The notes under the pieces were generated by a model, which saw only the letters and a list, made by a program, of their open reading frames with translations, was not told the origin of the DNA and did no database searches. This document shows, piece by piece, positions 8,543 to 46,436 of a stretch of 64,000 bases of DNA. Both the position numbers and the translations under genes were made by a program. The stretch is taken from contig JANXSM010000144.1 in assembly GCA_025352665.1 (NCBI GenBank), forward strand, positions 1 through 64,000, read 5' to 3'. How positions within the stretch are numbered: position 1 is the first letter of the stretch; each line of letters opens with the position of its first letter. Origin of the DNA: Rhodospirillales bacterium. Its GTDB lineage: Bacteria; Pseudomonadota; Alphaproteobacteria; Acetobacterales; Acetobacteraceae.

Positions 8543-8644
8543 AGCGTGATGACCGAGGGTGGAATCACCGGAAGGTCTGAATCACGCGATAAAACAGAGA
8601 GCTAGAGCGGGATGATGTCGCCGATCAGACGTCATCCCGCTCTG
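8540..8644 (+). repeat. 105-bp TA-flanked double-hairpin element, copy A
   Basis: One of four near-identical 105-bp copies in the window (also 21307-21411, 22938-23042, 29207-29311). It starts TAGAGCGTGATGACC, contains a first imperfect hairpin (GCGTGAT paired with ATCACGC), an A-rich linker, and a second hairpin made from GAGCGGGATGA and TCATCCCGCTC. The ends are inverted repeats next to TA; in this copy the right-hand TA has become TG. It resembles a non-autonomous MITE. Its first three bases are the stop codon of the importer 2 permease gene. Confidence 0.8.
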
Positions 8645-8780
8645 GCTGACGTCCTGGCCGACGGCTCGCAGGCGGTCTCAGTCACTTATAGCGGGTTCAG
8701 CCTCGACGCCGTCGCCGATGACGTTCGAACCCTCAACCTGCAAGCAGGTTTCGGTGCTCGAACGCCGTTGGCTCGGCAAA

Positions 8781-21307: not shown

Positions 21308-21411
21308 AGAGCGGGATGACGTCTGATAGGCGACATCATCCCGCTCTGGCTCTCTGTTTTAACCCGTGATTCAGACCTTTCGGTGATTCCACCTTCGGTC
21401 ATCACGCTCTA
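21307..21411 (-). repeat. 105-bp TA-flanked double-hairpin element, copy B
   Basis: Inverted copy of the element at 8540-8644. Read on the minus strand it begins TAGAGCGTGATGACC and ends CATCCCGCTCTA, flanked by TA at both ends. A few internal bases differ from the other copies (for example GGGTTAAAAC in the linker). Its first three bases on the minus strand are the TAG stop codon of the hexapeptide acetyltransferase gene. Confidence 0.82.
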
Positions 21412-22940: not shown

Positions 22941-23042
22941 AGCGTGATAACCGAAGGTGGAATCACCGAAAGGTCTGAATCACGCGATAAAACAAAAGGC
23001 TAGAGCGGGATGATGTCGCCTATCAGACGTCATTCCGCTCTA
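22938..23042 (+). repeat. 105-bp TA-flanked double-hairpin element, copy C
   Basis: Third copy, same orientation as copy A, flanked by TA at both ends. It differs from copy D at only a handful of positions (GATAACC for GATGACC, AAAAGGC for AAAGAGC, CATTCC for CATCCC). The CATTCC change weakens one base pair of the right-hand hairpin. Supplies the stop codon of pheA. Confidence 0.82.
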
Positions 23043-23082
23043 GCTGGTTTGAGCGGCCCCGTATCGCTTTGCGTTCTGCAAT

Positions 23083-29113: not shown

Positions 29114-29155
29114 CGCGCGCCGGGCTGGCCGGCGGCGGCGCGCAAAATATGACTC

Positions 29156-29206
29156 ATGCCAAACCGTCGTTGACACATCCTTCATGTGTCAACGACGGTT
29201 TGGCAT
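29156..29206. other. Perfect 23-bp hairpin abutting repeat copy D
   Basis: Bases 29156-29178 are perfectly complementary to 29184-29206, with a 5-nt loop: a 23-bp stem without mismatch (core AAACCGTCGTTGACACA). It directly abuts the 105-bp element copy D with no gap. No gene is attached. Such a perfect stem suggests a recent inverted duplication, a strong structured RNA or a protein-binding palindrome. Confidence 0.75.
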
Positions 29207-29311
29207 TAGAGCGTGATGACCGAAGGTGGAATCGCCGAAAGGTCTGAATCACGCGATAAAACAAAGAGCTAGAGCGGGATTACGTCGCCTATCAGACGTC
29301 ATCCCGCTCTA
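29207..29311 (+). repeat. 105-bp TA-flanked double-hairpin element, copy D
   Basis: Fourth copy, same orientation as A and C, flanked by TA on both sides. Unlike the others it does not touch a gene; it lies between a perfect 23-bp hairpin and another hairpin at 29316-29350. It carries small private changes (ATCGCC, GGGATTACG), two of which open mispairs in the right-hand stem. Confidence 0.82.
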
Positions 29312-29315
29312 GCCG

Positions 29316-32796: not shown

Positions 32797-34022
32797 CGCG
32801 CGACGCGCTCGGACGGGCGTTCGCTCTGGCCGATATAGTCGCGCGTCAGCGGCAACGCTGCCTGGTCGCGGGTGAGCTGGATCTGGAAGATCACATGGCC
32901 CTGGTGACGGAAGGCGAGTTCGCTGCCGGCGAGGTAGAATTCGAACATCCGGCAGAAACGCTCGTCGTGCATCGAGGCGATGGCATCGCGGTTGGCGGCG
33001 AACCGGCGGCGCCAGTGGCGTAACGTTTCGGCATAGTGCAGGCGCAGTACCTCGATGTCGGTGGTGATCAGGCCTGCGTGCTCGATGGCCGGCATCACCT
33101 CCGACAACGCTGGGGAATAGCCGCCGGGGAAGATGTATTTGGTGAACCACGCATTGGTGGTCGACGGGCCCAAACTGCGACCGATGTGGTGCAGCAAGGC
33201 CACGCCGTCGGGTGCAAGGCAGCGCTTCACGGTTTCGAAGAAACTGCGGTAATGCACCACGCCGACATGCTCGAACATGCCGACCGAAACGATACGGTCG
33301 AAGCGCCGCGCGAGGCTGCGGTAGTCAAGCAATTCGAAGCTCACGCGGTCCGCAAGTCCTTCGGCTGCAGCACGGGCGCGGGCGACCCCAAGCTGCTCGA
33401 CGGACAGCGTGATGCCGGTGACCCGCGCGCCGTAGTCGCGGGCGAGGGTGAGTGCCATGCCGCCCCAGCCGCAGCCGATGTCGAGCACTTCGAGGTCGGG
33501 CCGGTCCAGCTTCAACTTCGCGGCAATGTGATGTTTCTTGGCCTCCTGCGCCTGCTCCAGCGTTTCATTTCCAGTGGAAAAATACGCGCAGGAATATTGC
33601 CGGTCGCGATCGAGGAACATGGCGTAGAGCCGGCCGTCGATATCGTAATGATGCGCCACGTTGCGCCGCGAGCGGGAGGCGGGATTGAACTGGGCGAACC
33701 AGCGGGTCAGATAGGCCAGCCTGTCCTGGACCCACAATACCGGCTCGCGCGAGGTCTCAGCTTCCAGGTTGACCATAAAGAGGTCGAGAAGATCGTAGAT
33801 GCTGCAATCAACCGGGCGAAGTGTCTCGTCCATGTAGGCTTCGCCGACCGCCATCGAGGGCCACATCACAAAGCGCCTGATGGTGCTCCAGGTTCTTATT
33901 TCCACCAGTGCCTCGGGCCCGGGGGCGCCGACATAGGTGGAGATTTTTCCGTCGGGCCATCGTACGGTCAGTCGGCCGAGCACGATGAAGCCCTTCAGCA
34001 ACGCATCCATCAGTGCCCGCAT
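32778..34022 (-). CDS. cfa: Cyclopropane-fatty-acyl-phospholipid synthase family protein
   Basis: SAM-dependent methyltransferase, 414 residues, of the cyclopropane fatty acid synthase family, which adds a methylene group across unsaturated bonds of membrane lipids. A lipid-binding N-terminal domain precedes RSRRNVAHHYDI, the SAM site LDIGCGWGGMALTLARDYGA, GITLSVEQ and the YIFPGGYSPALSEV block. The ATG at 34022 has GGAGG seven bases upstream; a GTG two codons earlier is possible. Convergent overlap with the GNAT gene at its 3' end. Confidence 0.92.
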   Translation of the reverse strand: MRALMDALLKGFIVLGRLTVRWPDGKISTYVGAPGPEALVEIRTWSTIRRFVMWPSMAVGEAYMDETLRPVDCSIYDLLDLFMVNLEAETSREPVLWVQDRLAYLTRWFAQFNPASRSRRNVAHHYDIDGRLYAMFLDRDRQYSCAYFSTGNETLEQAQEAKKHHIAAKLKLDRPDLEVLDIGCGWGGMALTLARDYGARVTGITLSVEQLGVARARAAAEGLADRVSFELLDYRSLARRFDRIVSVGMFEHVGVVHYRSFFETVKRCLAPDGVALLHHIGRSLGPSTTNAWFTKYIFPGGYSPALSEVMPAIEHAGLITTDIEVLRLHYAETLRHWRRRFAANRDAIASMHDERFCRMFEFYLAGSELAFRHQGHVIFQIQLTRDQAALPLTRDYIGQSERPSERVARQSVST

Positions 34023-34203
34023 TGGCACGCCTCCATTGATAGGTGACAGACGTGAGTAGGATGGGGGCTTGCCGGAAAATTAACAAGACACGGGATCTTC
34101 ACGCAGCTGACAGTTGCTTGTTCGATTGTACTCGGATGTCCATGGTTGGTTAACCAATCGCGCGCAGACTTGACGTCGAATGAATTTTTGAGAGCCCGTT
34201 TTC

Positions 34204-36261
34204 ATGCGCATGCGCCAGATGTTTCTGCTGTCCATCGCACTCGGTTCGATGGTGGGCGCGATGGCAACGATCATGTTCGCGGTGCAGGAGGGCAACGCCC
34301 TGCAGGCGGCGCGGCGGGTCGAGCAGGACATGCAGTTGATGGCCGCGGCCATGCGGGTGCCGGAAACTCTGAATGTCGAACGCTCTTTGGTCAGCCCGCT
34401 GTTGGAAATACCAACCGCTGCGCGCAGCGAGCAGGTGGCAGTCATCCAGCGGCAGGTCGCGCTCGCCGACAGCACCATGGTCGAGGTCGACCGTCTCGCG
34501 AGCGCGCCCGCGGACCGCACACCGCTGCAAGAGTTCCAGCAGGCGGTGCGGCTGATCCGAACGGAGGCTCTGGCTGCCATCGTGGAGCCGGCGACCGCGC
34601 GCAACAAGACGTTGGTCGGGACCTACGCGGCAAGGATGATTGTCCTGCAGGAAGGTTTCAGTGGCTATATCGGCAGCCTTCGGCGTCGCGTGAGCGCCGG
34701 CAGTTCGACAGTTGGGATCAGCGCACGCCTCGCTACCTTGGCTTGGGACATGCGCGACCAGGCGGGACGGGGGTACAGCGCGCTAATCCGCGCGGTCGCC
34801 CTGCAGCGCGCGATGCAGGGCGAACTGGCCGAGGTGGTCGCGATCTACAAAGGCCGCATCGAGCAAATATGGTCAGCCGTGCTCGATACCGTGGCGGAGG
34901 CCGGAGATCCCGGGCTCGACAGCACTCTCGCCACCGCAAAGACCGGATTCTGGGACCATGGTGGGGATAGCTACGCAACCCTGGTCGCGCCGAACCGTGG
35001 GCAGGTCTTGGCGGTCGATCTGGACGCACTGCGGCGCGACGTCGTGCCGGTGCTGAACGCGCTGCTGCCGCTGCGCGATGCCGCGGTCAAACGGGCGCTG
35101 CAACTCAGCCACGAAGAAGTCATCGGCGTGCAGCAGCGGTTCGTGCTGGCCCTTGGTTTGGTTGTGCTGGCCTGTGGTGCGGCCATCGTCAGCACGATCT
35201 GGTTCGACCGTCGCGTGGTTCGCCCCACCGGCCAGATCACCACCACCATCCTGGCGCTGGCCGATGGCGACAGCCAGGTGGCAGTGCCGCTGCGCGACCG
35301 AACAGACGAGTTGGGCCACATGGCGCAGGCCATCGAACGACTCAGGCACAATGCCAACGCTGCCGCGACGGCCGAAGGGCTGCGCGTGGCCGACCAGGAG
35401 CGCGCGGCCACGCGTGGAGCCAGCATCGAGGCGATGTGCCGTGCGTTCGACGCCTCGAGCAGCCGCCTGCTTGGTGGCCTGTCCACCGCAAGCACCGGCA
35501 TGCGCGCCACCGCCTCCGGCATGGCGGAGGCGGCGCGCGATACCCAAGGCCGCGCCGGCACCGTGGCGGCGGCCGCCGAGGATGCCAGCGTGACGGTACA
35601 GACCGTCGCCGCCGCAGCCGAGGAGCTGAGTGCAACGATTTCCGAAATCAGCCGCCAAGTGGCGCAATCCGCCCAGGTGACCGAGCGTGCCGTAAGCGCC
35701 GCGCATGAGACCGACACGGTGGTGCGCGCACTCGCCGACGGTGCCCACAAGATTGGCGAGGTCGTCAGCCTGATCAACAACATCGCCAGCCAGACCAACC
35801 TGCTCGCGCTGAACGCGACGATCGAGGCGGCGCGTGCCGGAGACGCCGGCAAGGGGTTTGCCGTGGTTGCTTCGGAAGTGAAGCTGCTGGCAGGACAGAC
35901 CACGCGAGCCACCGAGGAAATCGGTGCCCAGGTCGCCCAGATCCAGGCGGCAACCCAGGAAGCGGTGCGCTCCATCAAAGGTATCACGCGGACCGTGGGG
36001 GAAATCAGCAGCATCGCGACGTCGATCGCAGCCGCGGTTGAGCAGCAGGGTGCCGCCACTGGCGAAATCGCCCGCAACGTGCAACAGGCCGCCCACAGCA
36101 CCAGCGAAGTGACGGTCAACATTGCCGGTGTGAGCCGCACCGCATCCGAAACGGGAACCGCGGCCGACGATGTGCTCGCCGCCGCCCGCGCGCTGACCGA
36201 TCAGTCCGAGGAAATGGCCCGCGAAGTCACCGCCTTCGTCGTCAAGGTTCGCGCGGCTTAG
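34204..36261 (+). CDS. Methyl-accepting chemotaxis protein
   Basis: Chemoreceptor of 685 residues. Transmembrane helix 1 is residues 6-27; a periplasmic helical sensor region runs to about 310; helix 2 is 312-334; a HAMP domain follows at 335-390 (starting [12 protein letters not shown]). The cytoplasmic signalling coiled coil has its tip near residues 525-560 ([20 protein letters not shown]) where CheA and CheW bind. No C-terminal CheB/CheR tether is present. The ligand cannot be predicted. No che genes are nearby; the downstream gap is a large compound palindrome. Confidence 0.95.
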
Positions 36262-36263
36262 AA

Positions 36264-36527
36264 GGTGTCCGGCTGCGCCGGATGGCCTTCGGCCCGACCA
36301 GGGCGCTGCCCTGGATCCGCCAGAGGCAGGGCCTCTGGACTCCAATCGTTTAAGGCATGTCTCTGAGTGAGGAGGGGGTCATATCCGCCGGGTCTGAGCA
36401 CCCGCGGGTATGATCCCCTCCTCACTCAGAGGCCCGCTTCAATGAACGGGGTGCAGGGGCCCGCCCCTGCTGGGCGCAGGGCAAGGCCCTGCTCGGGCCG
36501 AAGGCTATTCCGGCAAAGCCGGACACC
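36264..36527. repeat. 264-nt compound palindrome between convergent genes
   Basis: The outer left arm (from 36264, GGTGTCCGGC..GCCGGA..GGCCTTCGGCCCG) is matched by the complementary right arm ending at 36527, with few mismatches over about 50 bases. Each arm itself holds smaller palindromes (CCGGC/GCCGG, CAGGGC/GCCCTG). At the centre, 36361-36383 pairs with 36409-36431 in a 23-bp stem with one wobble, and CGGGT/ACCCG pairs inside that. It fills the gap between the chemoreceptor and the binding-protein gene, so bidirectional termination is a likely minimum role. Confidence 0.75.
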
Positions 36528-36548
36528 GAACCAGACCGAGTCTCGATC

Positions 36549-38087
36549 CTAAGGCGCCAGGCTGACGCCCTCTGGGCGCCAGAGGCCGTCGGGGCGACCT
36601 TTGAAGCCTTGGACTTTGGCGGAGAGGCCCCATAGCATCGAGAAGTGGTACAGGACGATGTTCGGCTGGTCCTGCAGGAAGATTTCCGTGGCCTGGTCGT
36701 AGAGTGGCTTGCGCTCCGCCGTGGTCTGCACGGCGGTTGCCTGTTGCAGCAGGGCGTCCATTTTCGGGTTGCAGTAGTGGCCCCAGTTGGTGAAACCTTT
36801 GCAGGTCAGCCAGATCGGCATGTTGCCGTCCGGGTCTGGGCGGCCCGACCAGATCAGCATGGTGGCGTCGAAGTCGCCAGCCTGGGTTGCGGCGACCAGG
36901 GCGGCGGACTCCTTTTGGATGATGCGCATGTTGAAGCCGGCGTCCTTGACCATGGACTGCATGATTTCGGCGACCTGTGCGTCCAGCGGGTCGGTGCCGA
37001 TGCCCAGCGCGAAGTTGACTTCCTTGACCCCGGCGGCGGCGAGCAGCTTCTTTGCGGCCTCGACATCGCGGGCGGGCACCGGGTGGGCTGCGTCGTAATA
37101 AGTGCTGCCGGGCGCTTCCATCTGGTTGGAGGGCACGTATTGGCCGTCGAAGGCGACCTGGTTGAGGGTGGCGCGGTCGAGGGCGAGCGAGAACGCCTGG
37201 CGTACACGGGCGTCGCGGCCGAGCGGGCTGTCGGCGGATTTGCCGTTGCCGACGTTGAATTCGATCGGCAGGAAGCCGAGCGAGGGCGTTTTTGCCATGC
37301 GCAGTTTTGGGTCGGCGACGACGGCTGCCACATCGGTCGGGGCAATGCGGTCGGCGATGTCGAGCGCGCCGGCGGCGAGGCCCACCTTGCGGATGTTGCT
37401 GTCCACGATGGTGCGGAACACCACGCCGGGCAGCTTGATGGCGGCGGCGTTCCAGTAGCCGGGGAAGCGTTCGAGGGTGATGTGGTCCTGGGCGACGCGC
37501 TCCTTGAAGGCGAACGGGCCGGTGCAGACCGGGTGGGCGGCGATCTCATCCTGCGACAGGTTCAGGATTTTGGGCGAATAGGGTGTTCCCGGCCGGTTGG
37601 TGAGGAGGGCGATCAGCGGCGAGAAGGGGCGCGAGACGTTGATGCGCAGTGTCAGCGGATCGACCACGTCGGCGCCGGTGATGGTGGCCATCTCGGACTT
37701 GCGGATCGAGTAGCTGGCGGTTTTATAGCGTTGGATGTTGGCAACCATGGCGGCGGCATCGAATGTCTCGCCGTCGTGGAACAGCACGCCTGGGCGCAGA
37801 TGGACGATGAGGGAGAGGTTGTCGGGCGCCCATTCCCAGGCGGTGGCGAGTTCGGGTACGAACTTCAGGTCGGGCGAAATGTCGATCAGGCTGTCGCACA
37901 TCACCGAGGTGACGATGCGGTTGGTGTAGCTGCCGTCGGTGGCGGGATCGAGCGGCGCCGGGTCGAATTCCAGGGCGACGCGCAGCGGCTGGTCGGCGGC
38001 CTGGGCTGTGGTCGCCAGCAGGGGGGTCGCCAGCAGGGCGGGGCCTGCCGCGAACAGCAGGGTTGCCATAAAATGGGACGCACGCAT
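36549..38087 (-). CDS. Peptide/opine-type ABC transporter solute-binding protein (family 5)
   Basis: Periplasmic binding protein of the DppA/OppA family 5, 512 residues. Signal peptide with LLFAAGPALLATPLLATTAQA-like hydrophobic stretch, then LRVALEFDPAPLDPATDGSYTNR, the LATAWEWAPDNLSLIVHLRPGV block and PGYWNAAAIKLPG. Start at the ATG at 38087 after a GGAGG. No permease or ATPase genes of this transporter type are beside it, so it must be an orphan or serve a transporter encoded elsewhere. Likely ligands are peptides or small organic compounds; not decidable here. Confidence 0.9.
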   Translation of the reverse strand: MRASHFMATLLFAAGPALLATPLLATTAQAADQPLRVALEFDPAPLDPATDGSYTNRIVTSVMCDSLIDISPDLKFVPELATAWEWAPDNLSLIVHLRPGVLFHDGETFDAAAMVANIQRYKTASYSIRKSEMATITGADVVDPLTLRINVSRPFSPLIALLTNRPGTPYSPKILNLSQDEIAAHPVCTGPFAFKERVAQDHITLERFPGYWNAAAIKLPGVVFRTIVDSNIRKVGLAAGALDIADRIAPTDVAAVVADPKLRMAKTPSLGFLPIEFNVGNGKSADSPLGRDARVRQAFSLALDRATLNQVAFDGQYVPSNQMEAPGSTYYDAAHPVPARDVEAAKKLLAAAGVKEVNFALGIGTDPLDAQVAEIMQSMVKDAGFNMRIIQKESAALVAATQAGDFDATMLIWSGRPDPDGNMPIWLTCKGFTNWGHYCNPKMDALLQQATAVQTTAERKPLYDQATEIFLQDQPNIVLYHFSMLWGLSAKVQGFKGRPDGLWRPEGVSLAP

Positions 38088-38161
38088 GGCCACCTCCGTC
38101 TGTGGTTTCGACATGTTCGCGACAGCAAGCACTTTGCCGATGCTGCGGTGCAAAGCAATCG

Positions 38162-38764
38162 TTAGAATGAGCGGCCCCGGGGATTGGGCTGCAGCCACGG
38201 CCGTGCGCGGGCGTCGGCCAAAGCGAACGCCTCGATGGCGGCGCTGTGGCTGCGCGTGAGGTCGAGATCGTCCCAGCCGTTCAGCAGCTTGGTGCGCCAG
38301 GCCGGGTCGATGGTGAAATCCACCCGCAGATTGCCGGCCGCGATGGTCTGGGTGGCGAGGTCGACCACGAGCATGAGGCGTCCGTCCGCCAGCACGGCCA
38401 GCAGCGCCCCGGCCTCGGCCTCGGTCACCTTGGCCGGCAACAGGCCGTTGTTGACGCTGTTGGCCGCGAAGATGTCGCCGAAGCTCGGGGCCACCACGCA
38501 GGTGATGCCGTAGTCGACCAGGGCATAGACGGCGGCTTCGCGCGAGGAGCCGGAGCCGAAATTGCGGCGCGCCACCAGGATCTTCGCGTCCGGGCGCAGG
38601 TTCAGGGGAAACGCCGGGTCGGTCCGCAGGTCGTGGAACAGCACCGGGGCGTAGCCTTCGGAGCGCGGGCGCTGCATGAAGCGGGCGGGGATGATCTGGT
38701 CAGTGTCGACCGCCACGATCGGAAGCGCGCAGGCGACGGCGTCGAGCCGGGTGAACGGGCGCAT
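38162..38764 (-). CDS. leuD: 3-isopropylmalate dehydratase small subunit
   Basis: LeuD, 200 residues, the swivelling subunit of isopropylmalate isomerase in leucine synthesis. Landmarks: AVDTDQIIPARFMQ, ILVARRNFGSGSSREAAVYALVDYG (in parts), VVAPSFGDIFAANSVNNGLLP. The ATG overlaps the leuC stop (38764), so the subunits are translationally coupled. A long frame open upstream of this start is antisense-type shadow of leuC and is not part of the protein. Confidence 0.95.
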   Translation of the reverse strand: MRPFTRLDAVACALPIVAVDTDQIIPARFMQRPRSEGYAPVLFHDLRTDPAFPLNLRPDAKILVARRNFGSGSSREAAVYALVDYGITCVVAPSFGDIFAANSVNNGLLPAKVTEAEAGALLAVLADGRLMLVVDLATQTIAAGNLRVDFTIDPAWRTKLLNGWDDLDLTRSHSAAIEAFALADARARPWLQPNPRGRSF

Positions 38765-45129: not shown

Positions 45130-45198
45130 ATGCGGATTATTGCAGGCCGCGCCGGTACGGCGATCGACCTAAGTTCACGCGCCGGTACGGCGCGATGA
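45130..45198 (+). CDS. 22-codon leader ORF overlapping rsmB
   Basis: An ATG at 45130 with GGAG eight bases upstream opens a 22-codon frame (MRIIAGRAGTAIDLSSRAGT then AR) whose TGA overlaps the rsmB start in an ATGA. The first residues MRIIAGRA resemble the start of RsmD methyltransferases, which might be chance. The frame contains the two direct repeats at 45148 and 45178. It could couple rsmB translation to ribosomes passing the leader, since rsmB itself has no ribosome site. Confidence 0.4.
   Translation: MRIIAGRAGTAIDLSSRAGTAR
45148..45192 (+). repeat. 15-bp direct repeat pair upstream of rsmB
   Basis: CGCGCCGGTACGGCG occurs at 45148-45162 and again at 45178-45192, exactly 30 bp apart, ending two bases before the rsmB start. 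Each unit is itself nearly palindromic (CGCCG GTA CGGCG) and could form a small hairpin over the initiation region. Confidence 0.6.
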
Positions 45199-46436
45199 GC
45201 GACCCAACAAGAGAGGCAGCCTTCGATCTGCTGACGGCGACGATTGATCGTCATCGGACGCTGGAGGACGCGCTCGACCAGTTGTCCGGGATCGAGGCGC
45301 GAGATCGTGCCGCCGGGCACCGCCTGGCCGGCGCCGTGCTGCGGCGCATGGGGTCGCTGGATGCCGTGCTGGAGCCGTTGCTCAAAAAGGCACCGCCGGT
45401 CCCGGTAATGCATATCCTGCGCATCGGCGCCGCCGGCCTGTTGCTGCTGGAAACGCCGCCGCATGCAGCCGTTGCCACCGCGGTCGGGCTCGCACGCACG
45501 CGCGGCCTGGCGCCGTTTGCAGGCCTTGTGAACGCTGTGCTGCGCCGCGTGGCCGAAGCCGGCCAGACGGGGCTGGAAAGCCTGGACGGTCCGCGGCTCG
45601 ACACGCCGGCCTGGCTGTGGACTGCCTGGGGCTCGCAGGCGCGTGCCATCGCGCAGGCCCATTTGGTGGAGGCACCGCTCGACCTCTCGCTGCGGCCTGG
45701 CGCTTCGGGGCCCGAGGGAGCGGAGCTGCTGCCAACCGGCGGCTGGCGCTGCCCGCCGCAGACCCGCGTGACCACGCTGCCCGGTTTCATCGAAGGTGAC
45801 TTCTGGGTGCAGGATGCCGCCGCCAGCATTCCGGCGCGCTTGCTCGCAGCCCAGCCGGGCGAGCGCATCGCAGACCTTTGTGCGGCACCTGGCGGCAAAA
45901 CCGCGCAGCTTGCCTATTCGGGGGCGCATGTCACCGCTGTGGAGAACCATGCCGGGCGCATCGCCCGACTGCGCGAGAACCTGGCCAGGCTGCGGCTGGA
46001 GGTCGAAACCGTCCAGGAGGACGCCGCACTTTGGAACCCGCCCGCGCCCCTCGATGCTGTTCTGTTGGACGCACCCTGCAGCGCCACCGGCACCATTCGC
46101 CGACACCCTGATGTTACACACCACAAGCGCCCGCGCGACGTGCAAGCCATGGTGGTGCAGCAGGACCGGCTGTTGGAAGCCGCCTGTGCCATGCTGCGGC
46201 CTGGTGGCCGGCTGATCTACGCCGTCTGTTCGCTGCAGCCGGAAGAGGGCGCGGCGCGGGTGGATGCCGCCATCCGCCGGCTCAGCCTGACGCCGTCGCC
46301 TTTCACCGCCGCGGAAATGGCGTTTCTGCCGGAAGCGCTGACGCCGGCCGGTCACGTCAGGACGCTGCCGTCGTTCTGGCCGCAGCGCGGCGGCATGGAC
46401 GGGTTTTTCGTCGCCCGCATGATGCGCCAGGAATGA
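45195..46436 (+). CDS. rsmB: 16S rRNA cytosine-5 methyltransferase (RsmB family)
   Basis: 413 residues: an N-terminal NusB-like RNA-binding domain (REAAFDLLTATIDRH, HRLAGAVLRRMGSLD, VNAVLRRVAE) and a Rossmann methyltransferase domain. SAM site ADLCAAPGGKTAQLA, motif IV DAPCSATGTIRRHPD and motif VI with the nucleophile cysteine YAVCSLQPEEG are intact. Methylates a cytosine in 16S rRNA (C967 in E. coli). The start at 45195 overlaps the leader ORF. Confidence 0.92.
   Translation: MSDPTREAAFDLLTATIDRHRTLEDALDQLSGIEARDRAAGHRLAGAVLRRMGSLDAVLEPLLKKAPPVPVMHILRIGAAGLLLLETPPHAAVATAVGLARTRGLAPFAGLVNAVLRRVAEAGQTGLESLDGPRLDTPAWLWTAWGSQARAIAQAHLVEAPLDLSLRPGASGPEGAELLPTGGWRCPPQTRVTTLPGFIEGDFWVQDAAASIPARLLAAQPGERIADLCAAPGGKTAQLAYSGAHVTAVENHAGRIARLRENLARLRLEVETVQEDAALWNPPAPLDAVLLDAPCSATGTIRRHPDVTHHKRPRDVQAMVVQQDRLLEAACAMLRPGGRLIYAVCSLQPEEGAARVDAAIRRLSLTPSPFTAAEMAFLPEALTPAGHVRTLPSFWPQRGGMDGFFVARMMRQE

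Follow-up and report, generated by a model that had tools for sequence, protein, structure and literature searches.

The 264-nt palindrome at positions 36264-36527 of the analysed stretch of DNA (64,000 nt, hereafter the window) represents a single copy of a dispersed, modular repeat resembling REP and BIME elements, and we consider it rather probable that it acts as a 3′-end hairpin for one or both of its neighbours, which are often convergent. Copies of the repeat share the same hairpin modules, mostly lie behind stop codons and keep their base pairs where their sequences differ. In the window the element is enclosed by two convergent genes, and the chemoreceptor and binding-protein identities proposed for them in an earlier reading of this DNA (the sequence-only reading) are upheld by domain matches and gene calls. 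The features are listed below with the evidence in brackets; strand applies to the two genes. L-numbers denote loci and G-numbers the sampled genomes, G000 being the genome of the window itself.

34204-36261, + strand: methyl-accepting chemotaxis protein (PF00015, PF00672), stop codon 2 nt from the element (domain match; gene call)
36264-36527: entire composite palindromic element, a single copy of the repeat family (sequence, fold, copy alignment)
36268-36282: left mini-hairpin 1, TCCGGC-TGC-GCCGGA (sequence; pair counts)
36284-36294: left mini-hairpin 2, GGCC-TTC-GGCC, with the alternative GCGC-TCC-GCGC in L010 and L030 (copy alignment; pair counts)
36298-36314: left mini-hairpin 3, CCAGGGC-GCT-GCCCTGG, core of the family-wide module (module search; pair counts)
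36320-36338: left mini-hairpin 4, CCAGAGGC-AGG-GCCTCTGG (inverted repeats; pair counts)
36361-36383: 5′ arm of the central stem, including the G-run AGGAGGGGG (fold; pair counts)
36409-36431: 3′ arm of the central stem (fold; pair counts)
36453-36470: right mini-hairpin 4′, GCAGGGGC-CC-GCCCCTGC (inverted repeats; pair counts)
36476-36492: right mini-hairpin 3′, GCAGGGC-AAG-GCCCTGC (inverted repeats; pair counts)
36497-36505: right mini-hairpin 2′, GCC-GAA-GGC (pair counts)
36509-36523: right mini-hairpin 1′, TCCGGC-AAA-GCCGGA (pair counts)
36549-38198, - strand: extracellular solute-binding protein family 5 (PF00496), stop codon 21 nt from the element (domain match; gene call)

The whole of 36264-36527 forms an almost unbroken imperfect hairpin, and the limits given in the sequence-only reading proved correct. 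The outermost arms (36264-36282 with 36509-36527) are 19 nt long and 89% complementary, and the next ones (36282-36333 with 36457-36508) extend over 52 nt at 77%. The previously noticed 23-nt central stem, 36361-36383 with 36409-36431, is present inside a larger pairing of 42 nt (36350-36391 with 36401-36442, 81% complementary), and the smaller palindromes reported within each arm do recur. Among inverted repeats of the 64 kb with arms at most 300 nt apart, the two longest are found in this element. Folding of both strands, which had been proposed as a check, gave structures far more stable than shuffled sequences in either direction. As RNA, the + strand reached -220.6 kcal/mol as compared to -128.8 +/- 5.6 in dinucleotide shuffles (z -16.5) and the - strand -200.4 kcal/mol (z -14.6, also against dinucleotide shuffles), while DNA parameters gave -110.8 (z -13.0). 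In each of the three tests none of 200 shuffles equalled the fold of the element. In the aligned copies each arm reads TCCGGC..GCCGGA, GGCC..GGCC, CCAGGGC..GCCCTGG and CCAGAGGC..GCCTCTGG, followed by a linker, the central stem and the mirror image. The central stem is about 20-33 bp long across these copies and carries a G-run.

A genome-wide search with the element returned many copies and showed the palindrome to be a dispersed repeat. The genome of the window (5.27 Mb in 177 contigs) contains at least 49 stretches of the approximately 260-bp repeat; the first copy search scored 40 of 112 candidates. Full-length copies number 15 including that of the window, to which the other 14 are 74-88% identical. 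Two partial copies (L039, L042) and five short or altered forms (L207-L211) lie inside contigs, and the remaining 27 stretches run off a contig end or stop within about 30 nt of it. Since two pieces at contig ends may belong to one copy, the true copy number may be lower than 49. Of the 354 contig ends, at least 27 are located inside a copy or no more than about 30 nt away from one; the assembly is therefore probably broken by the palindrome, which offers a practical reason for where contigs stop. A plasmid search with the element gave no match. At the start of contig C21 of G000, L013 (positions 1-270), counted among the 15 full-length copies, is a perfect 132-nt fold-back made of one element arm plus flank, which is probably an assembly artefact; because of this fold-back and its too short left flank, we left it out of the pair-keeping and flank tests below.

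In L008, L012 and L014 the second hairpin is of the GGCC type (GGCC-TTC-GGCC) in the left arm and of the GCGC type (GCGC-TCC-GCGC) in the right arm, and this mixing shows that the copies are mosaic. L207 and L213 consist of the outer layers plus a single CCAGGGC hairpin and nothing else, a form that a deletion between two CCAGGGC repeats would be predicted to leave behind. In L210 the outer layer surrounds a different central hairpin. The earlier suggestion of a recombinogenic repeat array stands as far as the repeat is concerned, and its recombinogenic part is indicated indirectly by the contig breaks inside copies, the mosaic arms and the deletion-like forms.

The position of the repeat with respect to genes was assessed using simple codon-usage gene calls, which are not an annotation, both in G000 and in other genera. 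For 40 stretches of G000, L013 included, 49 of the 55 gene edges adjoining the element are 3′ ends, and at 42 of these 49 the element overlaps the gene end or lies at most 30 nt from the stop codon, the other seven being 73 to 898 nt away. Fifteen stretches have a gene on both sides, 11 of them convergent, four tandem and none divergent; for comparison, the 50 adjacent gene pairs of the window comprise 10 convergent, 10 divergent and 30 tandem pairs. In other genera, where 60 loci (four of them without the module) were counted and element lengths had to be assumed, the preference for 3′ ends is weaker. It amounted to 28 of 39 edges in G166 (19 two-sided loci: 10 convergent, seven tandem, two divergent), 22 of 37 in G026 (17 two-sided loci: 13 tandem, four convergent, none divergent) and 20 of 27 in a mixed set of genomes.

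The sequence-only reading had proposed to compare the same gap in related genomes, and had named arms of unrelated sequence with no compensatory changes as the outcome that would speak against it. This comparison failed because the gap is not kept. Among relatives of the binding-protein gene with 68-76% identity (L072-L086, 14 of 15 examined) it is absent, and in most of them the stop codon of the binding-protein gene is closely followed by an open frame (by eye; these frames were not called as genes). Behind one such relative, in L083, there is a short element with the same modules. For this reason pairing was compared among the copies within the genome, using 14 copies and counting cells changed on both sides of a pair; the shuffle control ignores the relatedness of the copies. 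Double changes do keep the pairs and the two arms are related in sequence, so that the contrary outcome did not arise. Doubly changed cells that still pair numbered 24 in the central stem (4.6 in shuffles), 26 in the mini-hairpins (9.3) and 37 in the arm-to-arm pairs (17.9), and in none of the three cases did any of 500 shuffles reach the observed value. Counting pairs with a double change gave less extreme results, reached in 2/500 shuffles for the mini-hairpins and 7/500 for the arms, and the number of pair types in the mini-hairpins was reached in 8/500. The cells are not independent events, as 21 of the 26 in the mini-hairpins come from four pairs.

Since each mini-hairpin is self-complementary, local pairing and arm-to-arm pairing are confounded, and overall the two are not separable. 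At columns common to both models, 1157 of 1227 cells pair in the mini-hairpin model and 1144 in the long model, with 55 pairing in the former only and 42 in the latter only. At two informative pairs (columns 231-238 and 250-254) every one of the 14 copies keeps the local hairpin; the long-range partners 49-231, 30-250 and 26-254 fail in 3 to 5 copies, although the long-range pair 42-238 is maintained, as G-C or G-U. For the outermost hairpins the tendency is opposite, with local pairing of 91.7% and 84.5%. Double changes are usually read as a sign of selection. The available part of PMC8794818 describes that template switching can yield compensatory changes without selection and can also create and maintain hairpins. 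Template switching could also be a source of both the pair-keeping and the nesting observed here.

To follow the repeat outside G000, we used the exact module CAGGGCnnnGCCCTGGACCC. It is present in 51 of 150 sampled genomes of Acetobacteraceae, which represent 38 of 102 genera, and numbers as many as 449 copies; the reversed pattern gave no match in the same 150 genomes. Outside the family, the module was found in two of 380 sampled genomes of the class, with one or two matches each. In one of these two genomes, G466, the locus L204 has two module copies, each situated after CCA, flanking an apparent tRNA gene (read by eye). The full element is much more restricted. Among 60 genomes compared, with at most 12 candidates scored per genome, it was detected at high identity only in the genome of the window, and of the 59 other genomes 10 gave matches to parts of it. 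Layered elements of a similar kind, but with other central stems, occur in G002 and G005, which belong to the same genus, and in G026, G085 and G092. Among the matches listed for G166, copies are mostly without the long centre, L153 being the exception.

The palindrome may continue beyond the element. In the 14 copies, the left and right flanks of the same copy pair better with each other than with swapped flanks (0/5000 permutations at each of three lengths). Four of the copies (L002, L003, L011 and L012) beat every swapped flank pair at length 14, and the flanks of the other ten, including the window copy, are not outstanding singly. In L012, 25 nt of locus-specific flank continue the palindrome into the stop codon of one gene, in L011 17 nt do so with a one-base offset, and L002 has the locus-specific extension CACTGTGCG; the window copy shares only GGTGT/ACACC with its flank. 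From other genera 47 loci entered the test, of which 24 were usable and 23 were dropped as lacking a right-end anchor. The same trend was seen in G026, from another genus (12 copies, 0/2000 permutations), a weak match in G092 and G085 (4 copies, 74/2000) and no match in G166 (8 copies, 1512/2000). In this test the right end was chosen by the best own match, which favours own flanks; G166 was treated alike and showed no effect.

Two readings of the flanks are open to consideration: the element may be lodged within older hairpins, or the palindrome may extend itself outward. Outward growth is slightly favoured by L012 and L174, in which no loop bases separate the flank from the core. We searched for an orthologous empty site with three flanking genes (beside L012, L002 and L010) in eight genomes of the genus and found none. 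The gene beside L012 had just one match, of 31%, in one of these genomes. The partner proteins of L002 and L010 were absent within about 1.5 kb behind the orthologue, except for the last 35 residues of one of them, located 1.4 kb away in L246. A tentative picture is that of a layered, "Russian doll" family, in which the hairpin modules are conserved, the stem outside them is specific to each locus and the stem inside them changes fast, and palindromes would grow by insertion at the apex or by outward template switching. Gene-end hairpins would then be built and rebuilt by replication writing complementary sequence and not by point mutation.

Several explanations compete with a 3′-end hairpin. 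The element could be a by-product of replication, if a small repeated hairpin stalls forks and template switching perfects its arms, extends them into the flanks and nests the palindrome, the position at 3′ ends reflecting where insertions are tolerated. The advantage of own over swapped flanks, the continued palindromes of L012 and L011, the trend in G026 and the capacity of template switching to make and keep hairpins (PMC8794818, available part) all agree with this. We nevertheless regard it as doubtful, since on its own it leaves the preference for convergent 3′ gaps in G000 unexplained, the window copy and G166 show little or no flank match, and the arms are not simply homogenised in L008, L012 and L014. 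The same flank result would follow from a mobile element that seeks hairpins and inserts itself at the tip of a pre-existing bidirectional terminator hairpin, the old locus-specific stem persisting as flanks. In agreement with such a scenario, long palindromes of a second family (see below) are present in two convergent gaps of the window that lack the element, and the locus-specific hairpin at 29153-29209 (26-nt arms) also stands without it. It appears unlikely given that L012 and L174 keep no loop bases between the flank stem and the core, no orthologous empty site was found, and neither a target duplication nor a linked transposase of the two kinds sought was seen. Direct repeats flanking the 14 copies are no longer than those of swapped flanks (879/2000 permutations), and the transposase search covered Y1_Tnp and RAYT-like genes.

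Mobilisation by a RAYT (REP-associated tyrosine transposase), as in REP/REPIN families, is very improbable for this repeat. RAYT-like genes, a name that is our reading of the protein sequences, are encoded in 27 of the 150 family genomes, and 19 of these 27 have the module, as compared to 32 of the 123 without such genes (Fisher p 2.2e-5, or 1.5e-4 after removing two genomes whose match sits in a long open frame; phylogeny is ignored). In G139 a RAYT-like gene has a module at a distance of about 180 nt. Against this, a RAYT partner was rejected for G000 itself, where neither a RAYT-like match (E<=1e-8) nor a Y1_Tnp (E<=1e-5) was found. At seven of eight RAYT-like loci there is no module within up to 1.5 kb on each side (two of the eight come from module-free genomes), the genes in L226 and L228 adjoin a different hairpin, CCCGCATC..GATGCGGG, and the window copy lacks GTAG and CGTC. 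Finally, a structured non-coding RNA or a site for a DNA-binding protein (a nucleoid protein, or gyrase) might be considered. A run of at least four G is present in the central stem of all 16 copies picked from four genera, which suggests that the sequence is constrained in addition to the pairing. At the element there is neither an Rfam match at the gathering score, as opposed to three such matches elsewhere in the window, nor a sigma-70-type promoter match, and we consider this explanation improbable as a whole; the stable structured RNA of the sequence-only reading is still conceivable, and it matches no Rfam family at the gathering score.

Two other observations were made during these searches. 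The hairpin beside the RAYT-like transposase genes in L226 (G139) and L228 (G063) is a separate repeat present in copies of the form CCCGCATC-nnn-GATGCGGG. In L222 (G166) and L223 (G092), a Y1-transposase-like stretch is found inside a very long open frame, which presumably encodes a protein resembling a DNA methylase.

We return to the 3′-end hairpin. The position of the element, its strength on both strands and its kept pairing fit such a hairpin serving one or both neighbours, and transcripts from either side are probably stopped with its help. The element itself would be transcribed, as RNA polymerase leaving a gene would run into a hairpin of very high stability only a few nucleotides past the stop codon. 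The hairpin might help to end the transcript, might shield its 3′ end and might prevent collisions between two convergent transcripts, which may be of benefit to the cell. The copies have swapped arm modules and apparently collapse by deletion between module repeats, a mechanism suggested by the forms described above. Protection of mRNA ends has been hypothesised for REPs as well (PMC3733652, available part). A textbook intrinsic terminator is not supported, since the element has no T-rich tail. Sites with a GC-rich hairpin and a T-run in 34000-38400 were two in number, both at 34414-34430 and none at the element. The element resembles a bidirectional intrinsic terminator in its position between two stop codons and its strong hairpin on both strands, and differs from it in the missing T-rich tail and in being repeated. 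Usual bidirectional intrinsic terminators are several times smaller, and the earlier remark that the palindrome is far larger than a normal one is borne out, the element being a composite dispersed palindromic repeat.

BIMEs combine several repeat units in opposite orientation with a mosaic composition, and gyrase has been proposed as a binder of some of them. Here, four units per arm are present and arm types are exchanged in L008, L012 and L014. REPs are described in the available part of PMC3733652 as small (20-40 bp), extragenic palindromic repeats of high copy number that sit downstream of genes, between convergent or unidirectional ones, with super-families marked by a GTAG or CGTC tetranucleotide at one end of the hairpin; CGTC REPs are reported there as missing from Acetobacteraceae. 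As far as this description goes, our element is similar in being dispersed, palindromic, extragenic, placed behind genes, convergent or unidirectional, and composed of small hairpins in opposite orientation. Its copies number in the dozens, with single hairpins of 9-19 nt and a whole element of about 260 nt. It differs in build, with eight mini-hairpins and a long central stem combined in one element, in the absence of GTAG, CGTC and their complements from 36264-36527 (by eye, in the window copy), and in the flanks that join the palindrome in some copies. It also differs from RAYT-associated REPINs, as no linked RAYT was found in G000 and the module is present at one of eight RAYT-like loci elsewhere. 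Lichenicola cladoniae presumably belongs to Acetobacteraceae. A permissive REP survey gives for this species 1,369 REPs in the text and 6,569 in a table (PMC12306157, available part).

The RIME and the Sinorhizobium A/B/C palindromes are alphaproteobacterial intergenic repeats of unknown function with dozens of copies per genome (PMC2573895, available part). By description, our element is likewise an alphaproteobacterial intergenic mosaic repeat, but in the sampled genomes its exact module hardly occurs outside one family. It resembles MITEs in being short and dispersed, with inverted-repeat ends and no gene called in the window copy, and differs from them in lacking a target-site duplication; among Y1_Tnp and RAYT-like genes no parent transposase was found. 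We found no description of the composite element in the literature searched, which is weak evidence as few subscription papers were covered. If the proposed reading is true, one bacterial family possesses a gene-end repeat that is layered and unusually large and that lacks the tags and linked transposase of known REPs. Such a repeat could serve as a test bed for the origin and upkeep of long hairpins, whether by selection or by template switching, and for the insulation of convergent genes in GC-rich bacteria.

The window also contains other structured sequences. An Rfam sul1 RNA (RF03058) is predicted at 45719-45776 on the + strand, scoring 36.8 bits with a gathering threshold of 36.2, within the called gene 45195-46436. 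A second dispersed palindrome, AGAGCGGGATGANGTC, has 71 exact matches in this genome and none for the reversed control. With an inverted partner 8 nt away it occurs in the window at 8600-8647, 21308-21347, 22999-23044 and 29268-29313, and three of these four sites lie in convergent gaps. The locus-specific hairpin at 29153-29209, with arms 96% complementary and a 5-nt loop, is located 59 nt before a copy of the AGAGCGGGATGANGTC family.
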